From Fervidicoccaceae archaeon (GTDB lineage Archaea > Thermoproteota > Thermoprotei_A > Sulfolobales > Fervidicoccaceae), in contig JAVYOA010000009.1 in assembly GCA_038734945.1 (NCBI GenBank), positions 372,001 to 436,000 of the forward strand: DNA of 64,000 nt, written 5' to 3'. Shown in pieces: positions 42,067-53,444 of the stretch. How positions within the stretch are numbered: the stretch's first letter is position 1; the number at the start of each line of letters is the position of its first letter. The position numbers were made by a program, and so were the translations under genes. The notes beneath the pieces were generated by a model, which was not told the origin of the DNA, made no database searches, and saw only the letters and a program-made list of their open reading frames with translations.

Positions 42067-42504
42067 TTATTTTTTTGCTATTCTCTCCTTTATTAGTTCT
42101 GCATACTTAGTTGGTGAAAGCAGCTCGGCAATTTCTTCCTTGTTTTGAATTTTTATCTTAACTATCCATCCGCTCTCATAGGGATCATTGTTTATCAGCT
42201 GTGGTGCTTCTAGCAGCGTTTCATTTACATCCACGATTTCACCCGTTAGAGGGGAATATACATCTGAGACAGCTTTAACCGAGTCCAAAGTAGCAATAGC
42301 ATCCCCTCTCTCCACTCTTTTCCCTTTTTGGGGAAGATCGACTCCAACTATATCTCTCAGCTGTTTCTGAGCGAAGTCTGTTATCCCCAAAATAGCTATT
42401 TCTCCATCGAGCTTGACCCACTCATCCGTTTTTGTGTAAAGCAAGTCATCCCTAAGTATATAGTTCTTTATCTGTAAAATACCCAATTTTATCACCACTT
42501 TCAT
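42067..42504 (-). CDS. gcvH: Glycine cleavage system H protein
   Basis: About 145 residues. The lipoyl-lysine is in A-T-L-D-S-V-K-A-V-S (K77 from the preferred ATG 42504; ATG/GTG 42513 adds three residues). The family core Y-T-K-T-D-E-W-V, G-I-T-D-F-A-Q-K-Q-L and L-I-N-N-D-P-Y-E-S-G-W are all present. It shuttles the aminomethyl group between P and T proteins. gcvT starts about 110 bases away on the other strand, so both may be controlled from this spacer. The first 14 residues before I-K-N-Y are an extra hydrophobic stretch. Confidence 0.92.
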   Translation of the reverse strand: MKVVIKLGILQIKNYILRDDLLYTKTDEWVKLDGEIAILGITDFAQKQLRDIVGVDLPQKGKRVERGDAIATLDSVKAVSDVYSPLTGEIVDVNETLLEAPQLINNDPYESGWIVKIKIQNKEEIAELLSPTKYAELIKERIAKK

Positions 42505-42616
42505 AAGTGCCATTTACATGGCCTTATTATTTTCCAGTATAGAGTACTATCGGATTTTTCTCTGAGTAAGCAAATTTATAGTTTGTCTTCAATACCAAAG
42601 ATCGGTGAGTGAAAAA

Positions 42617-43732
42617 ATGAAGGAAATTCCCTTGAAGAAGCTTCACGAACAATTGGGAGCAAATTTTGGAGAGTTTGCTGGCTGGCTGGTCCCAATGGAC
42701 TATGGCTCAGTAATTCAAGAACATCAGTCTGTAAGAAAATCAGTTGGCATATTTGACATCAGCCATATGGGTAGAATAGCAATCAGAGGAGAGGATTCAA
42801 TTTATTTGCTGGAAAAAACATTCACGAAAAAAATCCAGAAAACCAAAGAGGGATTCATGAGTGGTCCCACGCTGGCTCTCAATTATTTTGCCAGAGTTAT
42901 AGATGACGAAATGCTCTATAGGGTTAGCAATACGGAATTTCTGAGTGTTCCCAATGCTGCATATAAAGACAGAATGATTGGGCATTTGAATGAAATCGCG
43001 AAAAATGAGAAGCTGAGAGTAACAATAGACGATCTCACAGACAAATATGTAATGTTTGCTGTTCAGGGCCCCAAAAGCCCCGAAGCAATGGAAAAGATAG
43101 GGTTGAAGGACGCTCTAGAACTTAAACCCCTTCAGTTCATGATACAGAATGCTGACATGCAAAACGGGGTTTACTTGATAAGCAGAAGTGGTTGGACTGG
43201 TGAGGACGGATTCGAGCTGTGGATCAGGGTAGAAAAAGGAGAGGAATTCTATAGAAAATTACTAGAAGCAGGTGCTGTCCCAGTAGGAATTGCTGCTAGG
43301 GATTCTCTGAGGATGGAAATGGGATTTGTACTTGGTGGAAATGAATATGGGGAAGATCCTAGGCACTATCCGTGTGCTACATCTCTGAGATATGGAATGG
43401 GAGCCATTGATTGGGATAAAGTCGGATTCATTGGGGAAGAAACCCTTAGAGCCTGCAGAAGAGAGGGAGCTAGGTGGCTGAGATTTGGCTTCATCATGAG
43501 AAAAGAGCATAGTAGGTACATTCCAAGAAAAGGGAGCAAAATACTTGTGGAAGACATTGAAATAGGATGGATTACAAGCGGAAGTTTCAGCCCTGTTTTG
43601 GAAAGGGGAATTGCTCAGGGATACATTGACAGCAGATATGCGATTGTGGGAGAGCATGTTGAAATAGTGGATGAGAGAGGAAGGAAAGGAACAGCGAAAA
43701 TAGAGGACTTCCCGCTGATAAATAGAAAATAG
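42617..43732 (+). CDS. gcvT: Glycine cleavage system T protein (aminomethyltransferase)
   Basis: About 371 residues from ATG 42617; GGTGA at 42604-42608 is the matching ribosome-binding site, so the GTG at 42605 is less likely. Features are P-M-D-Y-G-S-V-I-Q-E-H near 30, F-D-I-S-H-M-G near 47, Q-G-P-K-S-P near 151, the S-G-W-T-G-E-D-G-F-E motif and R-D-S-L-R-M-E-M-G. It transfers the C1 unit from H protein to a reduced pterin (tetrahydrofolate or a modified archaeal pterin). The pterin-synthesis genes at 48078-50071 fit this need. Confidence 0.93.
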   Translation: MKEIPLKKLHEQLGANFGEFAGWLVPMDYGSVIQEHQSVRKSVGIFDISHMGRIAIRGEDSIYLLEKTFTKKIQKTKEGFMSGPTLALNYFARVIDDEMLYRVSNTEFLSVPNAAYKDRMIGHLNEIAKNEKLRVTIDDLTDKYVMFAVQGPKSPEAMEKIGLKDALELKPLQFMIQNADMQNGVYLISRSGWTGEDGFELWIRVEKGEEFYRKLLEAGAVPVGIAARDSLRMEMGFVLGGNEYGEDPRHYPCATSLRYGMGAIDWDKVGFIGEETLRACRREGARWLRFGFIMRKEHSRYIPRKGSKILVEDIEIGWITSGSFSPVLERGIAQGYIDSRYAIVGEHVEIVDERGRKGTAKIEDFPLINRK

Positions 43733-43778: not shown

Positions 43779-43825
43779 TTTTCCTACAATGAATTTATAA
43801 TAGAGAACAATCGGTGTGAGTGGCA

Positions 43826-44560
43826 ATGGTCACAAATTACACAGTTGATAACCTTGACAAATATGTAGGTCAAAAGGTAAAAGATCCCTACCAGAGGGTA
43901 ATTGGATCACTGGCAAGCCTATACAGCGACATAGACGGGAATGTAAAGGCTGTGGAAGTTCTATTTGGCGACTCTTACTTCAAGACAGTCCAAGCTGATA
44001 GAATCCTAATTCAGAAAGACGAAATAGTGCTTCTTCCAGATTGGAAGTACTCAGCACTTAGAGTCATTGAAAGACTAGAAAGAGCAAGAAGAAGAGCCAA
44101 GGCCCTTGATGATCTCTATGCTAAAGGAGAGATAGCAAGAAGCGCTTATGAGGAATTCAAAGGGCAGGTCTCAAGAGATCTAGATTCGTTGAAGAAGGAG
44201 GCAAATGAAGCGAAGGAAATGATAAAGAAGAGGATTGGTGAGCTCGAGGACCAAATAGTGGAGATAGAGAAGGCCATAACAGCTCTGAAAATGAGCTACA
44301 TTGCAGGAGAAATAGGAGAGAGAGGATACAAGCCAGCTGCTGATATATTGAGGCAGAACAAGGATAGAAACCTTGAAGAGAAAAACGAGGCAAAGAGAAT
44401 ACTCGATTTAATAGCAAAACTGGAAACACAGAACCTTGATATTGATGCGGTTCTGAAGGAAATATCTCCCTCAACCACCGAAGGAGTTCAAAAAGGAGCA
44501 GAGCAGCCAATAGTGGTGGAGCTTCACGAACAGCCTACTGCTCAGAGTGGAACAGCATAA
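43826..44560 (+). CDS. cdvA: Cell division protein CdvA
   Basis: About 244 residues. Residues 8-65 form the PRC-barrel-like domain (V-G-Q-K-V-K-D-P-Y-Q-R-V-I-G-S), followed by a long coiled coil (70-205) and a tail with E-Q-P-I-V-V-E-L-H that should contact the CdvB winged helix. CdvA marks the mid-cell and recruits CdvB to the membrane in crenarchaea. ATG 43826 is chosen; GTG 43820 would add two residues. cdvB follows after 73 bases that contain a small hairpin. Confidence 0.92.
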   Translation: MVTNYTVDNLDKYVGQKVKDPYQRVIGSLASLYSDIDGNVKAVEVLFGDSYFKTVQADRILIQKDEIVLLPDWKYSALRVIERLERARRRAKALDDLYAKGEIARSAYEEFKGQVSRDLDSLKKEANEAKEMIKKRIGELEDQIVEIEKAITALKMSYIAGEIGERGYKPAADILRQNKDRNLEEKNEAKRILDLIAKLETQNLDIDAVLKEISPSTTEGVQKGAEQPIVVELHEQPTAQSGTA

Positions 44561-44597
44561 CATGAGGAGAAAACACAAAATCACCGTAGCAACAGCT

Positions 44598-44615
44598 CTC
44601 CCAAAAAGTGGGGAG
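44598..44615 (+). other. Small hairpin between cdvA and cdvB
   Basis: CTCCC (44598-44602) pairs with GGGAG (44611-44615) around an A-rich 8-base loop. It lies between the cdvA stop and the GGTG before the cdvB start. It may tune the ratio of CdvA to CdvB by partial termination, RNA processing or stability, which is inference; the stem is short. Confidence 0.3.
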
Positions 44616-44633
44616 GGGTCTAGGTGTTAGAAT

Positions 44634-45545
44634 ATGTCTTCAGTCATTGATAGAGGAGGGAAAAAGGGAATACTGTCCTGGTTCAGAGGACTGCTAGGTG
44701 CGGAGTCAGATAGGAGAGCTGACTGGGAGGAAATGCTTCAGGACATAATGGTTAGGTTGAAGAACGAGCAGGACAAGTTTGAAGAACTGGAATATAGAAC
44801 AAAGAAGAGGATAGATGAGCTCTTTGCTAGGGCTGTTGATAATTTCAAGCTGATGAACTCTGCTACAAAGGAAGATGAGAGAGGCACCTATCAGAACCTA
44901 GGCAAGGTCTATGCGGAGGAAGTATATGAGCTGAGAAGCTTTCTGAAGGCAATCCGCTTCACAAAGATAAGCTTGGAAAGAGTAATTCAGAGGCTTCAAA
45001 CTGTAAAAGACATTCACGACTTTCACGCAGTCCTGGGTCCTGTAGCAAACATGCTAAATGGAGTGAAAACAGAAATATCTTCAATATTCCCGAAAGCAGG
45101 TGAAACCCTAGATGAGATAAATAGGCTAATAACCGACATAATTGTAACAACAACTTCGGGAAACCAGTACAATGCAAGCCACAACTTCCTTCAGAATGAA
45201 GATGTTGAGAGCGTGATAAAAGAAGCCTGGAAGCAGGCTGAGAACAGCGTTGAGGCCGAACTTCCTGAGCCAGAGAAGCTCAGACCTCAAAATGCTTCCC
45301 AGCGGGCTCAGCAGAAACAAGTAGAGAAAAAAGCTGTACAAGTTCCAATACAGACAGTTCCATCAAATTCCAATGAAGAACTTGAGCAGTTGGTGCTTGA
45401 GGAAATAAAGAGAAGCGGGGGAAAAATTTTCGTCACAGAAATATCAGCGAAGCTTGGGATTGATAAGGAGAAAGTCTATGAAGTTCTTTACAATCTGAGT
45501 AAGAAGGGCAAAATCAAGATAGCCTCTCCGGGAAGAACACAATAA
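44634..45545 (+). CDS. cdvB: Cell division protein CdvB (ESCRT-III homologue)
   Basis: A 303-residue polymer-forming protein. Residues 25-190 form the basic ESCRT-III helical core. A proline/glutamine-rich linker with V-P-I-Q-T-V-P resembles the MIM2-type site for the CdvC MIT domain. The last 55 residues are a winged-helix domain (L-E-Q-L-V-L-E-E-I-K-R-S-G-G, then T-E-I-S-A-K-L-G-I-D) that binds CdvA. ATG follows GGTG by about 8 bases. CdvB drives the constriction of the division neck. Confidence 0.92.
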   Translation: MSSVIDRGGKKGILSWFRGLLGAESDRRADWEEMLQDIMVRLKNEQDKFEELEYRTKKRIDELFARAVDNFKLMNSATKEDERGTYQNLGKVYAEEVYELRSFLKAIRFTKISLERVIQRLQTVKDIHDFHAVLGPVANMLNGVKTEISSIFPKAGETLDEINRLITDIIVTTTSGNQYNASHNFLQNEDVESVIKEAWKQAENSVEAELPEPEKLRPQNASQRAQQKQVEKKAVQVPIQTVPSNSNEELEQLVLEEIKRSGGKIFVTEISAKLGIDKEKVYEVLYNLSKKGKIKIASPGRTQ

Positions 45546-45566
45546 TAATTTTTCGAGGTGATTTTT

Positions 45567-46694
45567 TTGGCTTTCCCATATTTACAGGAAATGGCAACTA
45601 GGTATGCCAGAGCAGCAGTAGCAGCTGATAAGGATGGAGACTATGATGCTGCCATTCAGAATTACAGGAAAGCCATAGAAATACTTACAAAAATAGTGAG
45701 AATGTATCCAGACAGTCCTCTCGTTTCCACTTATCTTGAAATGATAAAAAGCTATGAGAAAAGAATACAGCAGCTGCAGAATGATGCTGAAGCAGTTGGA
45801 GAATCCAGAACAAAGGGATCGGAAAAGAAGGATCTCTTAGAGGATATAGTTCTAGCGCAAAAACCAAACGTGAAGTTTGATGACATAGCAGATCTCAGGG
45901 ATGCCAAGCAAGCCATAACAGAGGCAATTATATATCCAATAAAGAGGCCAGACCTCTTCCCACTTGGATGGCCAAGGGGGATCCTCCTCTTTGGACCTCC
46001 AGGATGCGGAAAAACCATGCTAGCGGCAGCAGTTGCCAATGAAGTAAATGGCTATTTTCTCTATGTAGATGCTGCCAACATAATGTCCAAGTGGCTTGGA
46101 GAAGCTGAGAAAAACGTCAGCAAGATTTTCAAGTTTGCAAGAGAAAAAAACGAGGAAGGATCTCCGGTAATAATATTCATCGATGAGATTGACGCATTGC
46201 TGGGAACATTCTCTGGAGAAATAGGCGGCGAAGTTAGAGTGAGAAATCAATTCTTGAAGGAAATGGATGGAATTCAAGATAAAGATAAGAAATTCCATAT
46301 CTATGTAATAGGAGCGACGAATAAGCCATGGCAACTTGATGAAGCCTTCATAAGGAGATTCAACAAGAGAATATTCATACCACTTCCAGACAAGGAAGCT
46401 AGAATGCAGCTATTCAAGCTCTATACAAAGAATCTTCCTATTTCAAACGATATTGACTTCGACAAGCTGGTTGAGCAGACAGAAGGGTATACTGCAAGCG
46501 ATATTAGAGATGTAATCCAAGCAGCTCATATGAGAGTAATAAGAGAGTTCTTCGAGAAGAATCTAGGAAACGGAGAACCGAGAGCTATAAACATGGAGGA
46601 CTTCTTGGAAATATTGCGCATAAGGAAGCCCAGCGTTGATCCCCTCTATGTTAAGAGGTATGAAGCTTGGTTTGAGAAATTCAAGGCATTATAA
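45567..46694 (+). CDS. cdvC: Cell division protein CdvC (Vps4-type AAA+ ATPase)
   Basis: About 375 residues from TTG 45567, placed 5 bases after GAGGTGA. An N-terminal MIT domain (about 1-72, three helices with D-Y-D-A-A-I-Q-N-Y) precedes an AAA+ module with Walker A G-P-P-G-C-G-K-T (143-150), Walker B I-I-F-I-D-E-I-D (202-209), an R-R-F arginine finger and a Vps4-type C-terminal helix. It remodels and recycles CdvB filaments. The gene is the last of the cdv operon. Confidence 0.95.
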   Translation: MAFPYLQEMATRYARAAVAADKDGDYDAAIQNYRKAIEILTKIVRMYPDSPLVSTYLEMIKSYEKRIQQLQNDAEAVGESRTKGSEKKDLLEDIVLAQKPNVKFDDIADLRDAKQAITEAIIYPIKRPDLFPLGWPRGILLFGPPGCGKTMLAAAVANEVNGYFLYVDAANIMSKWLGEAEKNVSKIFKFAREKNEEGSPVIIFIDEIDALLGTFSGEIGGEVRVRNQFLKEMDGIQDKDKKFHIYVIGATNKPWQLDEAFIRRFNKRIFIPLPDKEARMQLFKLYTKNLPISNDIDFDKLVEQTEGYTASDIRDVIQAAHMRVIREFFEKNLGNGEPRAINMEDFLEILRIRKPSVDPLYVKRYEAWFEKFKAL

Positions 46695-46912: not shown

Positions 46913-46975
46913 AATACTCAGATACCCCAGAGAGGCTCATCGCCGAACTCACTCGGCATGACTCTCATCATCGTT
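46913..46975 (-). ncRNA. Candidate box C/D guide RNA overlapping the DUF1464 3' end
   Basis: On the minus strand an ATGATGA box C (46971-46965) is followed by a 12-base spacer, GTGA as degenerate D', CGATGAG as C', a further 14-base segment and CTGA box D (46921-46918). The layout and roughly 60-base size fit archaeal C/D sRNAs, which often overlap gene ends. D' and C' are imperfect and the terminal stem is weak, so this is only a candidate. No target was identified. Confidence 0.28.
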
Positions 46976-48121
46976 TCTGAATATCATTTCAAACTTTTCC
47001 TTCTTTAAGCTTTTCCTATATGCCTCAAAGTGCCTTTCAGCAACCTTTCTAAGATCTGGTATATATATGAAATCCATTACTGTTCCACCTGCTCTATCGA
47101 GCTTCATTTGTCTGAAGATAGATGTAAACCTTCCTCCGAGCAGTGCATCCCCCATCATTGCCATACCTTGTGCTGCCTCCTTCGAAGCAAAGCTTCCCTC
47201 CAGTCTAGGCCTGGTGAAAACTATATTCAAACCAAGCTCTTTCTTCAGAAAAAGTGAGAGCTCTGGGTTGCTCCACCTTCCGCTTAAAACTACAGGCTCT
47301 GTTCCACTCCCTCCCAAATAGTGAATTCCAGCCTTAATTGTTTGAAGCATATTTTTTGCATATGCTCTGCAGATCTCTCCTCTAGACTGAAAAACCTCAT
47401 ACATTGGAATATTACCACACGTCTCAAAAAGTCCCCCCTTCCACACAGAATTCCTTTTCCATCTCTTCCCAGCCACCACAATCTCTAGGTCTAGGGGACC
47501 AGCTGTCAGGAATCCAGGACCCAAGGATGTTCCGCCAAGACCTCCATATATATATCCGTTCTTCACTCTGATTAGAGCATTGTAACCAAACCCGAGCTCG
47601 AGGAGGAAGAAATCATTAATGCCATTCTCCCCAAGGACCCCCCTTAAGTAATGGGAAGCGATAAATGTCGAAGCTAATTTATCAGCTGTTCCCAAATCTA
47701 TTTTATTCACCTTGAAGGAAATTTCCACGGTGGAAAGCTGTTTAACTGAAGGGATATAGCAAGCTGGGGCTCCCTTTCTCCACAACTGAGTACCCAACTT
47801 ATACAGAGCTCTGTAGACATTAAAGCCAAGATCATTCTGCTTCTTCATCAAGAGGTATAGCGGAGTGAGGAGAAGAATTTCAGAGAAGAATATCTTTGGA
47901 TCCACAATATCATCGTTGCATACATAGGGGACTCCGTAGCCAGAAGGGCCAATAATTATATCAGCTTCCCCCTCCTCTCTCTTCAGCTCCTGAAGGAGAA
48001 TTTCAGGATTTGAAGCTATTTGCTCCGTTTCCATGCTTTTTTCCCAAACAACCCTTCCATCACTGAGGAGAACTATGTCAAAGCTCTTTGTACCAGGATC
48101 TATTCCTAAGCTCTTCACCAT
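46949..48121 (-). CDS. DUF1464 protein, ASKHA kinase-like
   Basis: A 390-residue protein of DUF1464, whose relatives are annotated as predicted butyrate kinases. It opens with the acetate-kinase/hexokinase-type loop L-G-I-D-P-G-T-K-S near 5-13. A G-G-L-G-G-T-S-L-G-P-G loop near 192 and V-L-S-G-R-W-S near 270 are the other nucleotide-fold landmarks. The start overlaps the MptA gene by 44 bases, and the first phosphate loop needs this start, so the overlap is real. As last gene of the glycine-cleavage/pterin operon it is a candidate for an unassigned kinase step in pterin or lipoate chemistry, but this is inference. Confidence 0.75.
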   Translation of the reverse strand: MVKSLGIDPGTKSFDIVLLSDGRVVWEKSMETEQIASNPEILLQELKREEGEADIIIGPSGYGVPYVCNDDIVDPKIFFSEILLLTPLYLLMKKQNDLGFNVYRALYKLGTQLWRKGAPACYIPSVKQLSTVEISFKVNKIDLGTADKLASTFIASHYLRGVLGENGINDFFLLELGFGYNALIRVKNGYIYGGLGGTSLGPGFLTAGPLDLEIVVAGKRWKRNSVWKGGLFETCGNIPMYEVFQSRGEICRAYAKNMLQTIKAGIHYLGGSGTEPVVLSGRWSNPELSLFLKKELGLNIVFTRPRLEGSFASKEAAQGMAMMGDALLGGRFTSIFRQMKLDRAGGTVMDFIYIPDLRKVAERHFEAYRKSLKKEKFEMIFRNDDESHAE

Positions 48122-48932
48122 CTATCATTACCTCCCCATATACATTGAATGGATGAATTGACTCGAAGCTCGTTACTCTAACAGATATCCAGTCAGCCTT
48201 CAAAGATATTGAACTTTTAGCAAGCTGCCATCCAATTTTCCTGGCAAGGTCCTCGGCGAAGAGAGGAGTATTTATTATCTTTTTTATAAGCCTTTCCTCC
48301 TCATCTCGGGATAGATATACTTGCAGCTTTCCTGAAAAAGACTGGCTAATCAGGTCAATTAGCTCCATAGCATTTTCTAGAGACATGCTGTTTTTGTGAC
48401 TCTCTACTTTAACCTCTGCAAGTGCCCTCTGCATATGAGTAGGCGTTACATTCCAGTCAGTTTTTTCATAGAATTTGAATACCTCCTTTGCACATGGACA
48501 TGATATGGTTCCCTTCATAGAAACAGCGAGATGCCACCTCTCTTCCCCTGTCCTCTTTCTAGTTACTCCCAAACGTATGGGGATCTCCTGTCCATCTTTT
48601 GGAACTGAAAAAATTATTTTGATCTCAGCTGAGTTTGAATCAGGATGAGACGATAGAGCTCTCGCAGCAATGCGGGAAAGGGCATTTTCTATCCTCATGC
48701 ATTTTTCATCGAATGTCTCCAGCACATTAGAAACAAGCCTTGCAATGTGAACGCCCTTTTTGCTACCAGGGAGGGAGATCAGGACCGAGAGTCTTCCAGA
48801 TACATCCAAGCACGAGCTATCCCATTCCAAGCTAATTGGTATATACAAACTCCTAATTCCAGCTCTGTTAATATCCAAAGGATAAGCAGGAGGGTCTTCA
48901 TGAATATCTGGCGATGCCTGTTTAAAGCTCAT
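48078..48932 (-). CDS. mptA: GTP cyclohydrolase MptA/FolE2 type
   Basis: A 284-residue enzyme of COG1469. Motifs are S-C-P-C-A-K-E (C145, C147), T-H-M-Q-R-A (H166), and the closing S-I-H-P-F-N-V-Y-G-E-V. The MptA branch opens GTP to 7,8-dihydroneopterin 2',3'-cyclic phosphate, while FolE2 makes the triphosphate; the sequence does not separate them with certainty. The last 14 or so residues are encoded in the overlap with DUF1464. Its start overlaps the PTPS gene by 11 bases. Confidence 0.88.
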   Translation of the reverse strand: MSFKQASPDIHEDPPAYPLDINRAGIRSLYIPISLEWDSSCLDVSGRLSVLISLPGSKKGVHIARLVSNVLETFDEKCMRIENALSRIAARALSSHPDSNSAEIKIIFSVPKDGQEIPIRLGVTRKRTGEERWHLAVSMKGTISCPCAKEVFKFYEKTDWNVTPTHMQRALAEVKVESHKNSMSLENAMELIDLISQSFSGKLQVYLSRDEEERLIKKIINTPLFAEDLARKIGWQLAKSSISLKADWISVRVTSFESIHPFNVYGEVMIDGEELRNRSWYKEL

Positions 48933-49335
48933 CGCTCTTCACTTCCACAAAATTGTTCTTTCCCTCATATAGCCTAACCGTAATTTTTCCATCGATTTTC
49001 TTCCGCAAATCCTTCAATATAGAAAGGGCAATGTATTCTGTAGTAGCATGTGGATAGTCAATTAGCTTAATATCTGTCCTAAATAGGCCACTAAGTTGAG
49101 TTTTTGAGATGTGGGAAGCAGGAAGGATCAATTTGTGGTCATATTCGGAAAGAACTTCTCTAGCTGCCTTTTTCAGAGTGCTGAAATCCATAATCATTCC
49201 AGTTTCAGCATTAATTTCTCCCTCAACTTCCAGCTCCAGTTCGAATGTGTGACCATGGAGAGACTCGCACTTTCCATTCTCTGACAATGTATAGTGAGAT
49301 GAATCAAAGGTAAGTCCCTTAATGCCTACTTTCAT
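48922..49335 (-). CDS. 6-Pyruvoyl-tetrahydropterin synthase/QueD-like (PTPS) protein
   Basis: About 137 residues from ATG 49335 (M-K-V-G-I-K-G). Zinc histidines are H14 in S-S-H-Y and H27/H29 in H-G-H. The active-site motif is C23-E24-S-L-H-G-H: both the QueD-type cysteine and an adjacent glutamate, a pattern described for bifunctional PTPS-I/III proteins. The F-S-T-L-K-K and D-H-K-L segments and the late L-Y-E-G agree. It lies between mptE and mptA with overlapping ends, so production of 6-hydroxymethyl-dihydropterin is a good possibility, with QueD function in archaeosine synthesis as alternative or second role. Confidence 0.83.
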   Translation of the reverse strand: MKVGIKGLTFDSSHYTLSENGKCESLHGHTFELELEVEGEINAETGMIMDFSTLKKAAREVLSEYDHKLILPASHISKTQLSGLFRTDIKLIDYPHATTEYIALSILKDLRKKIDGKITVRLYEGKNNFVEVKSDEL

Positions 49336-50071
49336 GCATCTCAGCCTCCCATGGAAATGGAGAACATTCAATTAAACCGGAGAGAGGTATTTCCACATTT
49401 TCTCCCTTGCATTTCAACCATTCAACTAGAAGCTTCCCTATCCAGAACTTCCTCATCCTAGTGCTTTTCGGAAAGCTATTCCTTGAGGGTAAAACAGTTT
49501 CTCCAATGGAATAAACGCGTACATTTCTGGCTCCAAAGAAGAGAGCAGCGAACACGGATCTATCACCATCTGTGAATCCACCAAAATTAAAAAAAGGAGG
49601 TTGGGGATCCCTCTGAGTTGTAAAGAGAACTTTGCCCTTCAGCCCTCTGAGCTTCTCAATGAAATTGGATGCAGCTTGAAAATTGTCTCCATGAATGTGT
49701 CCAACAATCAATGAAATTTTACTCATTAATCCTTCATCAATTCCTGAAATTCCATCGAAGTCTGTAACTAGCATATCTGGGGTTCTCCTAAGTTTTTTCA
49801 CTGCTTTCCATAAAGCTGAATCTGCTACTACTAAGACCTCCCCCTCAATTCTCTCAATTATCTCCAGCTCAGGACCATTGCCAACTATCGCTACTTCCTT
49901 TCCCTCTATTAATTGAAAGCCGCGATTCAGTGCATCTAGATCATACTCTATCTTATTAGCAAGCATTTTTGCGGCAATGCTATCTTCTGAAAAATTGAGA
50001 GGGAGCTGATTAACAATCCAATTAAAAATTTTGCCATATTCCGAGCTTTCAAACAGATCTCTGCTTAGCAT
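49319..50071 (-). CDS. mptE: 6-Hydroxymethyl-dihydropterin pyrophosphokinase, MptE type (DUF115)
   Basis: A 250-residue protein of DUF115. Characteristic segments are V-A-I-V-G-N-G-P-E-L near 60, V-A-D-S-A-L-W near 83, V-T-D-F-D-G near 101, G-H-I-H-G-D-N near 124 and T-D-G-D-R-S-V-F near 167. Archaeal MptE activates 6-hydroxymethyl-7,8-dihydropterin for condensation with the aromatic arm of methanopterin or folate-like cofactors. The start overlaps the gcvPB stop by 23 bases and its end overlaps PTPS by 17. Confidence 0.85.
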   Translation of the reverse strand: MLSRDLFESSEYGKIFNWIVNQLPLNFSEDSIAAKMLANKIEYDLDALNRGFQLIEGKEVAIVGNGPELEIIERIEGEVLVVADSALWKAVKKLRRTPDMLVTDFDGISGIDEGLMSKISLIVGHIHGDNFQAASNFIEKLRGLKGKVLFTTQRDPQPPFFNFGGFTDGDRSVFAALFFGARNVRVYSIGETVLPSRNSFPKSTRMRKFWIGKLLVEWLKCKGENVEIPLSGLIECSPFPWEAEMHESRH

Positions 50072-51527
50072 TATCTACACCGTAGACTATAGAGGGCTTC
50101 AGTGTTTGGGGATGATTTGCTCTAACAAGATCTAGCTTCCTCGAAGAAGTATTGAGTGGAAGCTCCTTGATTTTTTCCCTATTTCTTTGGGCAATTGTAA
50201 CGAAATCCCTAAGTGCTTCCACATACATTTTAACGGTTTCAGCAGATTCTGTTTCTGTGAACTCGAACATCATCGCTTCATCCACAATTAATGGAAAGTA
50301 TATAGTTGGGGCATGAAGTCCCCTGTCAAGAAGGAACTTTGCAGCATCATCTGCTGTCGCTCCTATCTCCTCTGCCAGGCGCTTCAAGGATATAACTGCT
50401 TCATGCTTCCTAAATCTATTGGGATCATAGGGTAGCTCAATGATGTTCAGTTCTTTGAGGAGAGAGAGGAAATAATTAGTGTTCAATGAAGAATGCACAG
50501 CAACTTTCCATATATCCTCTCCATAAGCTAGAATGAAAGCATATGCATAGATCATGCCCGGTATATTTCCCAAGGTGCTCAATACATTCCCAATGCTTTT
50601 CTCTGGAGTCCTCCACACAAATTCTCCATTCTCCTCTTCAATTAAATAGCCTGGAAGATATTTTGCCAGCTCACCTTTAGCACAAACAGCCCCAGCTCCA
50701 GGTCCACCGCCACCATGGGGTGAACCAAAAGTCTTATGAAGATTCAAATGGACAATGTCAAAACCCATATCTCCTGGTCTAGCTATTCCAATTATCCCAT
50801 TCAAGTTAGCACCATCGTAATAAAGAAGACCTCCTGAGCTGTGAACTATGCTTGATATTTCCTTTATTTCCTCCTCAAACAAGCCAAGGGTGTTGGGATT
50901 AGTCAGCATGAGACCAGCAGTTTTCCTTCCTGCTGCATTCCTAAGAGCATTGACATCCACATTTCCCCTCTCATTTGTCTGTATTCTCACAACTTTGAAC
51001 CCACCCATTGCCGAGCTGGCAGGATTGCTTCCATGCGCACTATCAGGCACTATCATCTCATCTCTAAGCTCATCTTTTCTATCTCGATGATATGCTTTTA
51101 TCATGAGAACTCCGCTGAGCTCTCCAGAAGCTCCAGCAGGTGGCTGAAGGCTGCATGCATCCATTCCTGTTATTTCCTTGAACCACTCCTGAAGCTCATA
51201 GATAATCCTCAGCAAACCTCTCGCTCCCCCCGCTAAGAGAAGAGAGGGATGCATGTTTCTCAGCTTGCTGGACTGAAGGATCCTGGCAGCTATTTTTGGA
51301 TTATATTTCATTGTACATGAACCTAGAGGAACCGGTCCAACATCAATTCCGTAGGATATCTGACTCAGCCTAGTAAAGTGCCTGACAACCTCCAACTCGC
51401 TCAAGTTGGGAAGCGCTAGCTCTTTTCTCCTAAGAGATTCAGGTAATAGCTCTATTTCTTCCTTCTCTCTCTCAATTCTATATTCAAATAAGAGCTTTTC
51501 ATCCCATTTAGCCTGCCTAAATACCAT
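50049..51527 (-). CDS. gcvPB: Glycine dehydrogenase (decarboxylating) subunit 2
   Basis: A 492-residue PLP enzyme. The cofactor lysine is K265 in L-N-L-H-K-T-F-G, followed by S-P-H-G-G-G-G-P-G. The opening has I-D-V-G-P-V-P-L-G-S-C-T-M-K-Y, typical of P-protein beta half. It forms the alpha2beta2 decarboxylase with GcvPA and passes the aminomethyl group to GcvH. Length and motifs are complete. The start overlaps gcvPA by 11 bases. Confidence 0.94.
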   Translation of the reverse strand: MVFRQAKWDEKLLFEYRIEREKEEIELLPESLRRKELALPNLSELEVVRHFTRLSQISYGIDVGPVPLGSCTMKYNPKIAARILQSSKLRNMHPSLLLAGGARGLLRIIYELQEWFKEITGMDACSLQPPAGASGELSGVLMIKAYHRDRKDELRDEMIVPDSAHGSNPASSAMGGFKVVRIQTNERGNVDVNALRNAAGRKTAGLMLTNPNTLGLFEEEIKEISSIVHSSGGLLYYDGANLNGIIGIARPGDMGFDIVHLNLHKTFGSPHGGGGPGAGAVCAKGELAKYLPGYLIEEENGEFVWRTPEKSIGNVLSTLGNIPGMIYAYAFILAYGEDIWKVAVHSSLNTNYFLSLLKELNIIELPYDPNRFRKHEAVISLKRLAEEIGATADDAAKFLLDRGLHAPTIYFPLIVDEAMMFEFTETESAETVKMYVEALRDFVTIAQRNREKIKELPLNTSSRKLDLVRANHPQTLKPSIVYGVDNAKQRSV

Positions 51528-52893
51528 TTGATAGCACCTCCCTCAGAGATGCTCCAAAAATTTCTATATCCTCTCTCTCATGAACTTCTGTAGCACATGA
51601 TATTCCTCCTTGAACAGTCATTGAGAAGGGAATTATTGATCTTTCTTTTACCATTCTCATGAAGATTTTCTTGCTATCTTTTCCAGAAGGAAAACGAAAT
51701 GCTATATTTTTGTAGTGCAGTGCCCTCGGATGAATGATTTCTAAACCGTTCTCGCTCAGCTTTTTCTTCAGTTCTTCTGTTAATTCCAGTATCTTTGAGC
51801 CCTCCTTTCTCAATCCCCTTGATCCTTTTAGAGCAAGGCTTACCAGTGCAGCTATTGCATTCAATGAAGCACCAGTTGTTATATTCGAAGTTGCCTTCTC
51901 TCTTCTTATATGTTGCTCCCTGCTCTGGAGAATCATAGCATAGCCTATATTTCCATCAGCATCAACGGTCTCGCCAATCAGTCTTCCTGGTAGATTTCTC
52001 AGCAGCTCTCTATCGTTCCTAATTCCCAATATTCCAAGTAGCATGCCTCCCCCATACAATGGAAGGCCCAGCGATTGCCCCTCTCCAACAACAATGTCTA
52101 CTCCAAGGTCTCCTGGAGGAGCGAGGATGCCTAGGGATGAAGGGTCTGAGAATGCAATTGCAATTGAGTTGGCATTATGCGCTTCCTGAATTATCTCAGC
52201 AGTTGTTTTTCTCACTTCTCCAGTATTTGAGGGATAATCAACAATTACTCCTGCACCTTTTTCATTCCTTATTTTCGATAATTCCTCAGAGTTTATCTCT
52301 CCTGTCTCTTCATCAAACGAGTATTCTACATAGGAAATTTCGTGACCTTGAAAATATGTTTTCAGGACGCTCTTGTATTCTTCAAAAAGGGTGCTGGGAA
52401 CCAAGATTTTTTTGTTCTTCTTCACCCTGACAGACATTAGCGATGCCTCTGCCAAAGCTGTGGCCCCGTCATACATGCCCGCATTTACTATCTCGACACC
52501 ATAAAGTACTGCCATAGCGCTTTGATATTCAAAAAGCATCTTGAGAAGCCCTTGAGAAACCTCTGGCTGATATGGAGTATAAGCCGTTAGAATCTCTCCT
52601 CTTGATATTATGGCATCAACTACTGGATGAGTGTAGTGAGGAGCAACAGGTCCCCCAGCAAAAATCCTGTATAGTGGGATATCCTCAACATCCATTAGAG
52701 AAGAAGCCATTTCCCTCTCAATGCTAATTGAAGATAGAGGGATCCCCCTCCCTACTTTGAGCTTTCTGTTGAGGAGAAATTCCCTTGGAATATCGGAAAA
52801 CAACTCCATTGGATCATTTATTCCTATTGTTTTGAGCATTTCTTCAATAATCTTTTCATCGTCATTGGGTATCCATGGATGAGCGGATCTCAA
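51517..52893 (-). CDS. gcvPA: Glycine dehydrogenase (decarboxylating) subunit 1
   Basis: About 458 residues from TTG 52893, giving M-R-S-A-H-P-W-I-P-N-D-D-E-K, the family N-terminus; GGGGGGA sits five bases upstream. Longer in-frame starts to 53004 would add a hydrophobic stretch overlapping the promoter of the divergent signal peptidase, so I reject them. Y-D-G-A-T-A-L-A-E-A near 152 and G-G-G-M-L-L-G-I-L-G near 280 are typical. It is the first gene of the six-gene glycine-cleavage/pterin operon. Confidence 0.92.
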   Translation of the reverse strand: MRSAHPWIPNDDEKIIEEMLKTIGINDPMELFSDIPREFLLNRKLKVGRGIPLSSISIEREMASSLMDVEDIPLYRIFAGGPVAPHYTHPVVDAIISRGEILTAYTPYQPEVSQGLLKMLFEYQSAMAVLYGVEIVNAGMYDGATALAEASLMSVRVKKNKKILVPSTLFEEYKSVLKTYFQGHEISYVEYSFDEETGEINSEELSKIRNEKGAGVIVDYPSNTGEVRKTTAEIIQEAHNANSIAIAFSDPSSLGILAPPGDLGVDIVVGEGQSLGLPLYGGGMLLGILGIRNDRELLRNLPGRLIGETVDADGNIGYAMILQSREQHIRREKATSNITTGASLNAIAALVSLALKGSRGLRKEGSKILELTEELKKKLSENGLEIIHPRALHYKNIAFRFPSGKDSKKIFMRMVKERSIIPFSMTVQGGISCATEVHEREDIEIFGASLREVLSNGI

Positions 52894-52988: not shown

Positions 52989-53444
52989 ATGGTGAGGATG
53001 TCAAGAATTAGCTGGAAGGACGTATTAGCAATATTACTCATAGTATCGATAGCTCTATTGCTCAAGCCAGCCCTCTCAGCTGTTTCAGGAACAACTACAC
53101 CTATAGCTGTAGTAAAGGGAAACAGCATGCTGCCTCTCTTGCGGGAAGGAGACATCGTATTTCTGCATCACGTTCCGCCGCAAGATATAGCAGTCGGCGA
53201 AGTAGTTGTCTATCAAAGTATTTATGGAGGATACATCATACACAGGGTCGTCAGCATCATTCAGACTCCAACTGGCATATTTTATGTCACAAAGGGAGAT
53301 AACAACCCCTCCGATGACAGCTTACTGGGGCAGTTCGTGGATGGTCCGGGAATACCTTATGATAGAATAGTGGGGGTAGTCTGGTCTCCATTCAACAAAA
53401 CATTTGTCATCCCTCTGATAGGGATAATTTCCATTGTTATATGA
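52989..53444 (+). CDS. Signal peptidase I (Sec11-like, S26B)
   Basis: A 151-residue membrane protease with an N-terminal membrane helix (about 10-30). The catalytic serine is S46 in G-N-S-M-L-P-L-L; H85 in I-I-H-R-V-V replaces the bacterial lysine, as in ER and archaeal enzymes; D-N-N-P-S-D-D at 104-110 supplies the aspartate. A second hydrophobic stretch ends the protein. It would process the secreted proteins of this window. It is divergent from gcvPA across 95 bases containing an A/T-rich box (ATAATAAATA near 52949). Confidence 0.88.
   Translation: MVRMSRISWKDVLAILLIVSIALLLKPALSAVSGTTTPIAVVKGNSMLPLLREGDIVFLHHVPPQDIAVGEVVVYQSIYGGYIIHRVVSIIQTPTGIFYVTKGDNNPSDDSLLGQFVDGPGIPYDRIVGVVWSPFNKTFVIPLIGIISIVI

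Follow-up and report, generated by a model that had tools for sequence, protein, structure and literature searches.

A DUF1464 protein encoded in an operon with glycine decarboxylase and pterin genes in Fervidicoccaceae belongs, in all likelihood, to methanopterin-type cofactor synthesis

Methanopterin-like carriers are used by many archaea beyond the classical methanogens, and for the late stages of methanopterin synthesis some of the enzymes have long been missing. In methanofuran synthesis, the ASKHA-like protein MfnF performs a condensation with a furan diphosphate. Among the enzymes of reduced-pterin synthesis, CExxHGH is the motif of the PTPS-I/III hybrid, which in archaea may act on a monophosphate (PMC5041015). 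The SHMT of Sulfolobus, a related C1 enzyme, was reported to be selective for the modified folate of that organism, sulfopterin (PMC3697235). DUF1464 (COG2441) found no mention in the literature searched, with most subscription journals outside the scope of that search, and an earlier prediction is possible.

Analysis of the window (the whole stretch of 64,000 nucleotides from a Fervidicoccaceae archaeon) revealed six genes on the minus strand in the order gcvPA-gcvPB-mptE-PTPS-mptA-DUF1464 (Table 1). The ORF coordinates agree exactly with the six co-directional genes and the junction overlaps of 11, 23, 17, 11 and 44 bases (from gcvPA to DUF1464) described in a first-pass annotation made from the sequence alone. 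The gcvPA start is the TTG at 52893, and a longer in-frame alternative start occurs at 53004. The gcvH and gcvT genes placed by that annotation at 42067-43732 are present, as judged from Pfam matches; they are divergent from each other, lie about 3 to 4 kb from the operon and form no part of it. Adjoining gcvT, the region 43820-46694 of the window contains cdvA (NCBIfam match), followed by two putative genes, ORFs resembling cdvB and the Vps4-type CdvC ATPase. The genome of the window comprises 1.34 Mb in 9 contigs.

Table 1. Coordinates of the operon genes, of the gcv genes outside the operon and of further pathway genes in the genome of the window (G000, given with contig).
Feature	Coordinates	Strand	Evidence
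gcvPA, glycine dehydrogenase subunit 1	51517..52893	-	NF001696 435.4 bits, cut-off 364
gcvPB, glycine dehydrogenase subunit 2, 492 aa	50049..51527	-	NF003346 607.7 bits, cut-off 441
mptE, 6-hydroxymethyl-7,8-dihydropterin diphosphokinase family, 250 aa	49319..50071	-	PF01973 27.2 bits, under cut-off
PTPS (COG0720)	48922..49335	-	PF01242 91.3 bits; start ATG of MKVGIKG
mptA / folE2-type GTP cyclohydrolase (GCHY-1), 284 aa	48078..48932	-	PF02649 142.5 bits
DUF1464 (PF07318, COG2441 type), type 1, 390 aa	46949..48121	-	Pfam 221.6 bits; ASKHA fold (predicted)
gcvH, outside operon	42067..42513	-	PF01597 150 bits
gcvT, outside operon	42605..43732	+	PF01571 220.6 bits; NF001567 above cut-off
MptG (beta-RFAP synthase)	G000:C1:67210-68121		
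DHPS-like protein	G000:C9:98189-99727		TIGR00284
NTase-DUF447-CitG cluster	~G000:C9:218.9-221.2 kb		

The family assignments of the six genes held in Pfam, NCBIfam and profile searches, with mptE and mptA each falling under one cut-off. In addition to its PF01973 match, mptE scored 251 bits against profile A3, which was built from the MptE genes at related loci and includes the window sequence among its rows, and mptA matched TIGR00294 with 118.9 bits, under the NCBIfam equivalog cut-off of 220. The DUF1464 match lies far above the PF07318 gathering cut-off of 23.5 bits and covers model positions 1-325 of 327.

Analysis of the operon PTPS revealed the motif CESLHGH, which conforms to CExxHGH and so combines ExxHGH with CxxxHGH, as in PTPS-III / PTPS-I/III; the PTPS proteins of three sister genomes carry CEN or CES at the same motif. 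No MptD (PF04038) was detected in the genome of the window, and the motif makes the operon PTPS a candidate replacement for MptD, a step earlier described as absent from the operon. Two PTPS genes elsewhere (L043:11566-11979 and L089:8883-9365) have CMNxHGH in place of CExxHGH; the genome of the first (G043) also has no MptD, so that the PTPS motif leaves the MptD step there unexplained. A PF00809 (DHPS) search of the window's genome gave no match. The proposal that DUF1464 replaces a missing DHPS in this genome was dropped since TIGR00284 detects a DHPS-like protein there; a weaker form of it is taken up below.

Besides the window, an identical six-gene order was found in L063 (from G050, a genome of the same family), in L087 (Fervidicoccus sp. 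ARK-14) and in L088; it is thus present in 4/4 Fervidicoccaceae-type genomes seen and in no other DUF1464 locus among those surveyed. Recurrence in three other genomes of the group shows that the arrangement exceeds chance. Junctions in the sister operons are mostly tight or overlapping; the gcvPA/gcvPB gap in L063 is 138 bases, and three further junctions have gaps of 6 to 34 bases. The closest DUF1464 relative, among the best 80 of 323 GTDB relatives, is from Fervidicoccus sp. (60% identity). Outside Fervidicoccaceae-type genomes, gcv genes sharing a DUF1464 operon were found in none of the 126 loci surveyed, the nearest being about 7 kb away (L054). At the genome level, gcvPA occurs in 27/44 genomes with DUF1464 against 13/36 without it (Fisher p 0.04, although genome-level p values overstate independence because the sampled genomes share ancestry). 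The union of gcv and pterin genes is thus a local arrangement, as the shared operon is confined to one group and the genome-wide association is weak. These results count against a general link of DUF1464 to gcv and, as regards gcv, are the outcome that the first-pass annotation had itself named as a refutation. A role of DUF1464 in gcv or lipoate metabolism was rejected, the association being weak outside Fervidicoccaceae-type genomes, and no support turned up for a suggested part in the maturation of GcvH or lipoate.

The local arrangement itself makes sense because the T protein requires a tetrahydropterin acceptor. The suggestion that the operon couples glycine oxidation to the making of its own C1 carrier therefore stands for the side-by-side genes seen here but not as a general gcv link. 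In this organism, glycine decarboxylase would be coupled through the operon to synthesis of a carrier that is probably a tetrahydromethanopterin-type pterin, MPT-like as is Sulfolobus sulfopterin, and not folate.

Whole genomes and a GTDB scan (best 80 of 323 relatives) gave 126 unique DUF1464 loci. Analysis of their neighbourhoods revealed MptG within eight genes of DUF1464 in 53/126 loci and within two genes in 41/126. Also recurring in these neighbourhoods were DUF447 (35 loci), DHPS-like TIGR00284 (30), mptA (29), MptD (22), mptE (20) and CitG (17); Dmr-like genes were counted in 33/126 loci, a number that takes in weak matches to other flavoproteins. The identity of MptG was confirmed by NCBIfam TIGR00144 above cut-off in 3/3 tested examples, and the DHPS-like and reductase-like genes were likewise assigned by NCBIfam. 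Overall, at least one core pathway gene lies near DUF1464 in 73/126 loci, spread over Thermoproteota, Bathyarchaeota, Asgard, Archaeoglobi and Methanosarcinales; the remaining 53/126, including every Methanoperedens locus in the set, have none. Full clusters of MptG, DHPS-like, MptA and DUF1464 genes occur in Asgard (L131, L140, L146), Bathyarchaeota (L113, L137) and Thermoproteota (L043, L089, L107). The neighbourhood survey, suggested in the first-pass annotation, therefore associates DUF1464 with the methanopterin genes MptG, mptA and mptE and not with gcvPA/gcvPB. A search of viral contigs gave no match.

A Sulfolobales-type operon, DUF1464-NTase-CitG-metallophosphoesterase, was observed at ten loci, and CitG with NTase is present at L032, L033, L038, L042, L046, L047, L056, L067, L068 and L070. 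Proteins of the CitG type (ATP:dephospho-CoA triphosphoribosyltransferase family) and nucleotidyltransferase-like proteins recur beside DUF1464, DUF447 or MptG, as at L172:4853-7170. Tandem nucleotidyltransferase-like proteins are found in Asgard methanopterin clusters (L146:15389-16423, L131, L140, L143, L159, L161). In the citrate lyase system, CitG works together with CitX/MdcG. By analogy, CitG and NTase could conceivably attach the ribosyl phosphate of methanopterin-type tails and make their phosphodiester. This idea remains a guess because a model of the Asgard NTase-like protein (pLDDT 92.5) matched no PDB entry over its full length; the matches were partial, to OB-fold and nucleotidyltransferase structures, none with E <0.001. 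One contig labelled Deltaproteobacteria (L135) carries DUF1464 with MptG, mptA, PTPS, DHPS-like, CitG and DUF447 genes, reflecting either transfer into a bacterium or a binning error.

Comparison of 80 genomes revealed MptG (TIGR00144, at least 80 bits) in 44/44 genomes with DUF1464 and in 3/36 without it; counted by family, the figures are 14/14 and 1/12 (p 1.6e-6). DUF1464 is present in 44/45 genomes with MptE and MptG and in 0/12 genomes that combine MptE with folate-type FolP (DHPS) and have no MptG. Within one genus, G043 has both MptG and DUF1464 and G142 has neither. Not all MPT users have the DUF1464 step, since MptG occurs without DUF1464 in G136, G026 and G042 and in the controls Methanocaldococcus jannaschii and Methanosarcina acetivorans. 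In the control searches Sulfolobus acidocaldarius gave matches for DUF1464, MptG, CitG, DUF447 and the DHPS-like protein. The neighbourhoods and the co-occurrence with MptG bear out the earlier suggestion of a link to reduced-pterin cofactor synthesis, and we place DUF1464 in the methanopterin-type cofactor pathway with high confidence. Because DUF1464 follows MptG and not MptE alone, its place is on the RFAP arm or at the joined product and outside the pterin half.

Overall, our analysis favours, with a probability of roughly 0.6, an ATP-dependent phosphotransferase acting on the RFAP-derived arm or the joined molecule of methanopterin-type synthesis. The products of mptA, PTPS-I/III and mptE would supply 6-hydroxymethyl-dihydropterin diphosphate, and beta-RFAP synthase (MptG), the DHPS-like protein and the NTase-DUF447-CitG proteins would be supplied from elsewhere in the genome. 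DUF1464 would be a dedicated enzyme next to MptG, serving the RFAP-derived (aryl-ribose/ribitol) arm or the joined molecule. The same co-occurrence pattern also fits a different enzyme, one that is not a kinase and, in the manner of MfnF, condenses 6-hydroxymethyldihydropterin diphosphate with RFAP and releases PPi, since DUF1464 is absent where just one half of the pathway exists. Nine genomes of f14, f18 and f29 have MptE, MptG and DUF1464 with neither TIGR00284 nor a strong PF00809 match, which is what such an enzyme would predict, and there is a possible precedent in that NCBIfam assigns TIGR03123, with an N-terminus resembling an ASKHA phosphate loop, to MfnF. The nine DHPS-less genomes are G008, G024, G097, G016, G047, G127, G073, G103 and G157. 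If so, an ASKHA fold would take the place of the TIM-barrel DHPS, and the TIGR00284 protein would have another job. However, the DHPS-like TIGR00284 is also present in 33/44 genomes with DUF1464, including that of the window, profile comparison yields no alignment between DUF1464 and the MfnF-type protein, and the MptG2-DUF1464-2 pairs described below need no separate condensation; a condensing role is thus considered rather unlikely.

Phylogenetic analysis of MptG and DUF1464, by quick tree searches with no bootstraps, revealed a second MptG clade (MptG2, 10 rows, SH-aLRT 83) and a DUF1464-2 clade (10 rows, SH-aLRT 100) containing the same taxa. MptG2 and DUF1464-2 are near neighbours in 8/10 cases, with MptG2 usually directly upstream, and both MptG-DUF1464 pairs are present in G148. 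In the Methanosarcinales contigs L101, L103 and L106, a tandem pair of DUF1464 genes comes after MptG; L101 has the order MptG2-DUF1464-2-DUF1464-1, one DUF1464 of each type. MptG and DUF1464 were therefore duplicated together, and inheritance as a pair indicates consecutive steps or a complex. This co-duplication and close adjacency, with the weak similarity of DUF1464 to models for HSP70 and for the activase of acyl-CoA dehydratase, would also suit an ATP-driven, activase- or chaperone-like ASKHA partner that activates or regulates MptG and is no metabolic kinase. Such a partner is quite unlikely, as MptG of M. jannaschii was characterised as a purified enzyme without DUF1464 (work cited in PMC6787355) and the cleft motifs of DUF1464 look like an active site.

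The acetate-kinase-like fold ascribed to DUF1464 by the first-pass annotation agrees with its AlphaFold (AF2) model (pLDDT 93.1, pTM 0.93), an ASKHA fold for which Foldseek placed butyrate kinase 2 first (E ~1e-11), followed by acetate and ROK kinases. As in members of ASKHA, the predicted structure has a pair of ATPase domains of the actin-like type, together with the phosphate-1 (DxG[TS]) and phosphate-2 loops. A sequence profile of DUF1464 also matched butyrate kinase 2 (E 3e-7), with the C-terminal half and the first 28 residues aligned; weak matches include ROK, HSP70, BadF and acyl-CoA dehydratase activase models. Among 50 diverse DUF1464 sequences, D8, G10, K137, D142, G144, T145, D147 and K148 were kept in all or all but one, E175, G177, D211, E213 and K314 were likewise invariant or nearly so, and the segments GIDPGTKS and ExGxG were conserved. 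IDxGTxDK is an invariant motif, retained as IDxGTADK in the short Sulfolobales form; degenerate short DUF1464 proteins were found in two f6 genomes (L065, L066). By our own reading, made without a computed superposition, IDxGTxDK may lie at the position of the catalytic Asp of ROK kinases and the catalytic His of acetate kinase, which would make a hydroxyl group a better candidate for the acceptor than a small carboxylate. The base acting on the hydroxyl would most likely be one of two invariant Asp residues of this motif, D142 or D147.

DUF1464 would be a catalyst in its own right. Kinase chemistry as such is rated at even odds, and an acceptor derived from RFAP is proposed tentatively, as possible and somewhat doubtful. 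Two points count against the phosphotransferase reading: to our knowledge, common depictions of the methanopterin pathway show no evident kinase step beyond MptG, and the nearest fold relatives phosphorylate carboxylates. The name of COG2441 implies a butyrate-type kinase that acts on short-chain carboxylates in energy metabolism; this would accord with butyrate kinase 2 being the closest solved fold and sequence, but the neighbours and co-occurrence of DUF1464 are those of the methanopterin pathway, the match spans the ATPase half, and the region of the acetate kinase catalytic His appears, on our reading, to correspond to IDxGTxDK, making this very unlikely. A missing phosphorylation between MptA and MptE, proposed earlier from the position of DUF1464 at the end of the mptE-PTPS-mptA operon, is hardly credible: the phylogenetic profile goes most of the way to refuting it (of the folate-type genomes that have MptE and FolP but no MptG, 12/12 are also without DUF1464), and it is superfluous where MptA, PTPS-I/III and MptE already cover the pterin half.

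If the phosphotransferase reading is true, a widespread archaeal family without known function becomes a specific C1-cofactor enzyme, DUF1464 marks archaea that use methanopterin-type carriers as against folate, and the misleading butyrate kinase annotation, an informal label, is corrected. The survey also shows two co-duplicated MptG-DUF1464 pairs as the forms in which MptG occurs.

Among known systems, MfnF (TIGR03123), the methanofuran coupling protein, has an N-terminus like the ASKHA phosphate loop and serves a sister C1 cofactor. It differs from DUF1464 in profile (hhalign probability 0.1%) and in occurrence (TIGR03123 in 16/80 genomes), and the MfnF models TIGR03123 and NF040623 showed neither an NCBIfam match nor profile similarity to DUF1464. 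TIGR03123 was rejected as a complementary analogue, its occurrence not being complementary and its profile not matching. The butyrate and acetate kinases, the acetokinase branch of ASKHA, are the best Foldseek and profile matches and have the phosphate-1 loop in common with DUF1464; they differ in identity (about 15%), in TM score (about 0.55), in the acceptor-site motif (IDxGTxDK in DUF1464) and in genome context. The operon PTPS resembles the PTPS-I/III hybrid (COG0720) in its CExxHGH motif, in a genome without MptD, and may act likewise. The archaeal tetrahydromethanopterin pathway differs in that DUF1464 is no assigned member of it in the literature searched and that the classical methanogens are without DUF1464. 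The genome of the window nevertheless encodes MptA, PTPS, MptE, MptG and the DHPS-like protein of this pathway, and DUF1464 shares both operons and phylogenetic profile with its genes (MptA, MptD/PTPS-III, MptE, MptG, DHPS-like and Dmr).
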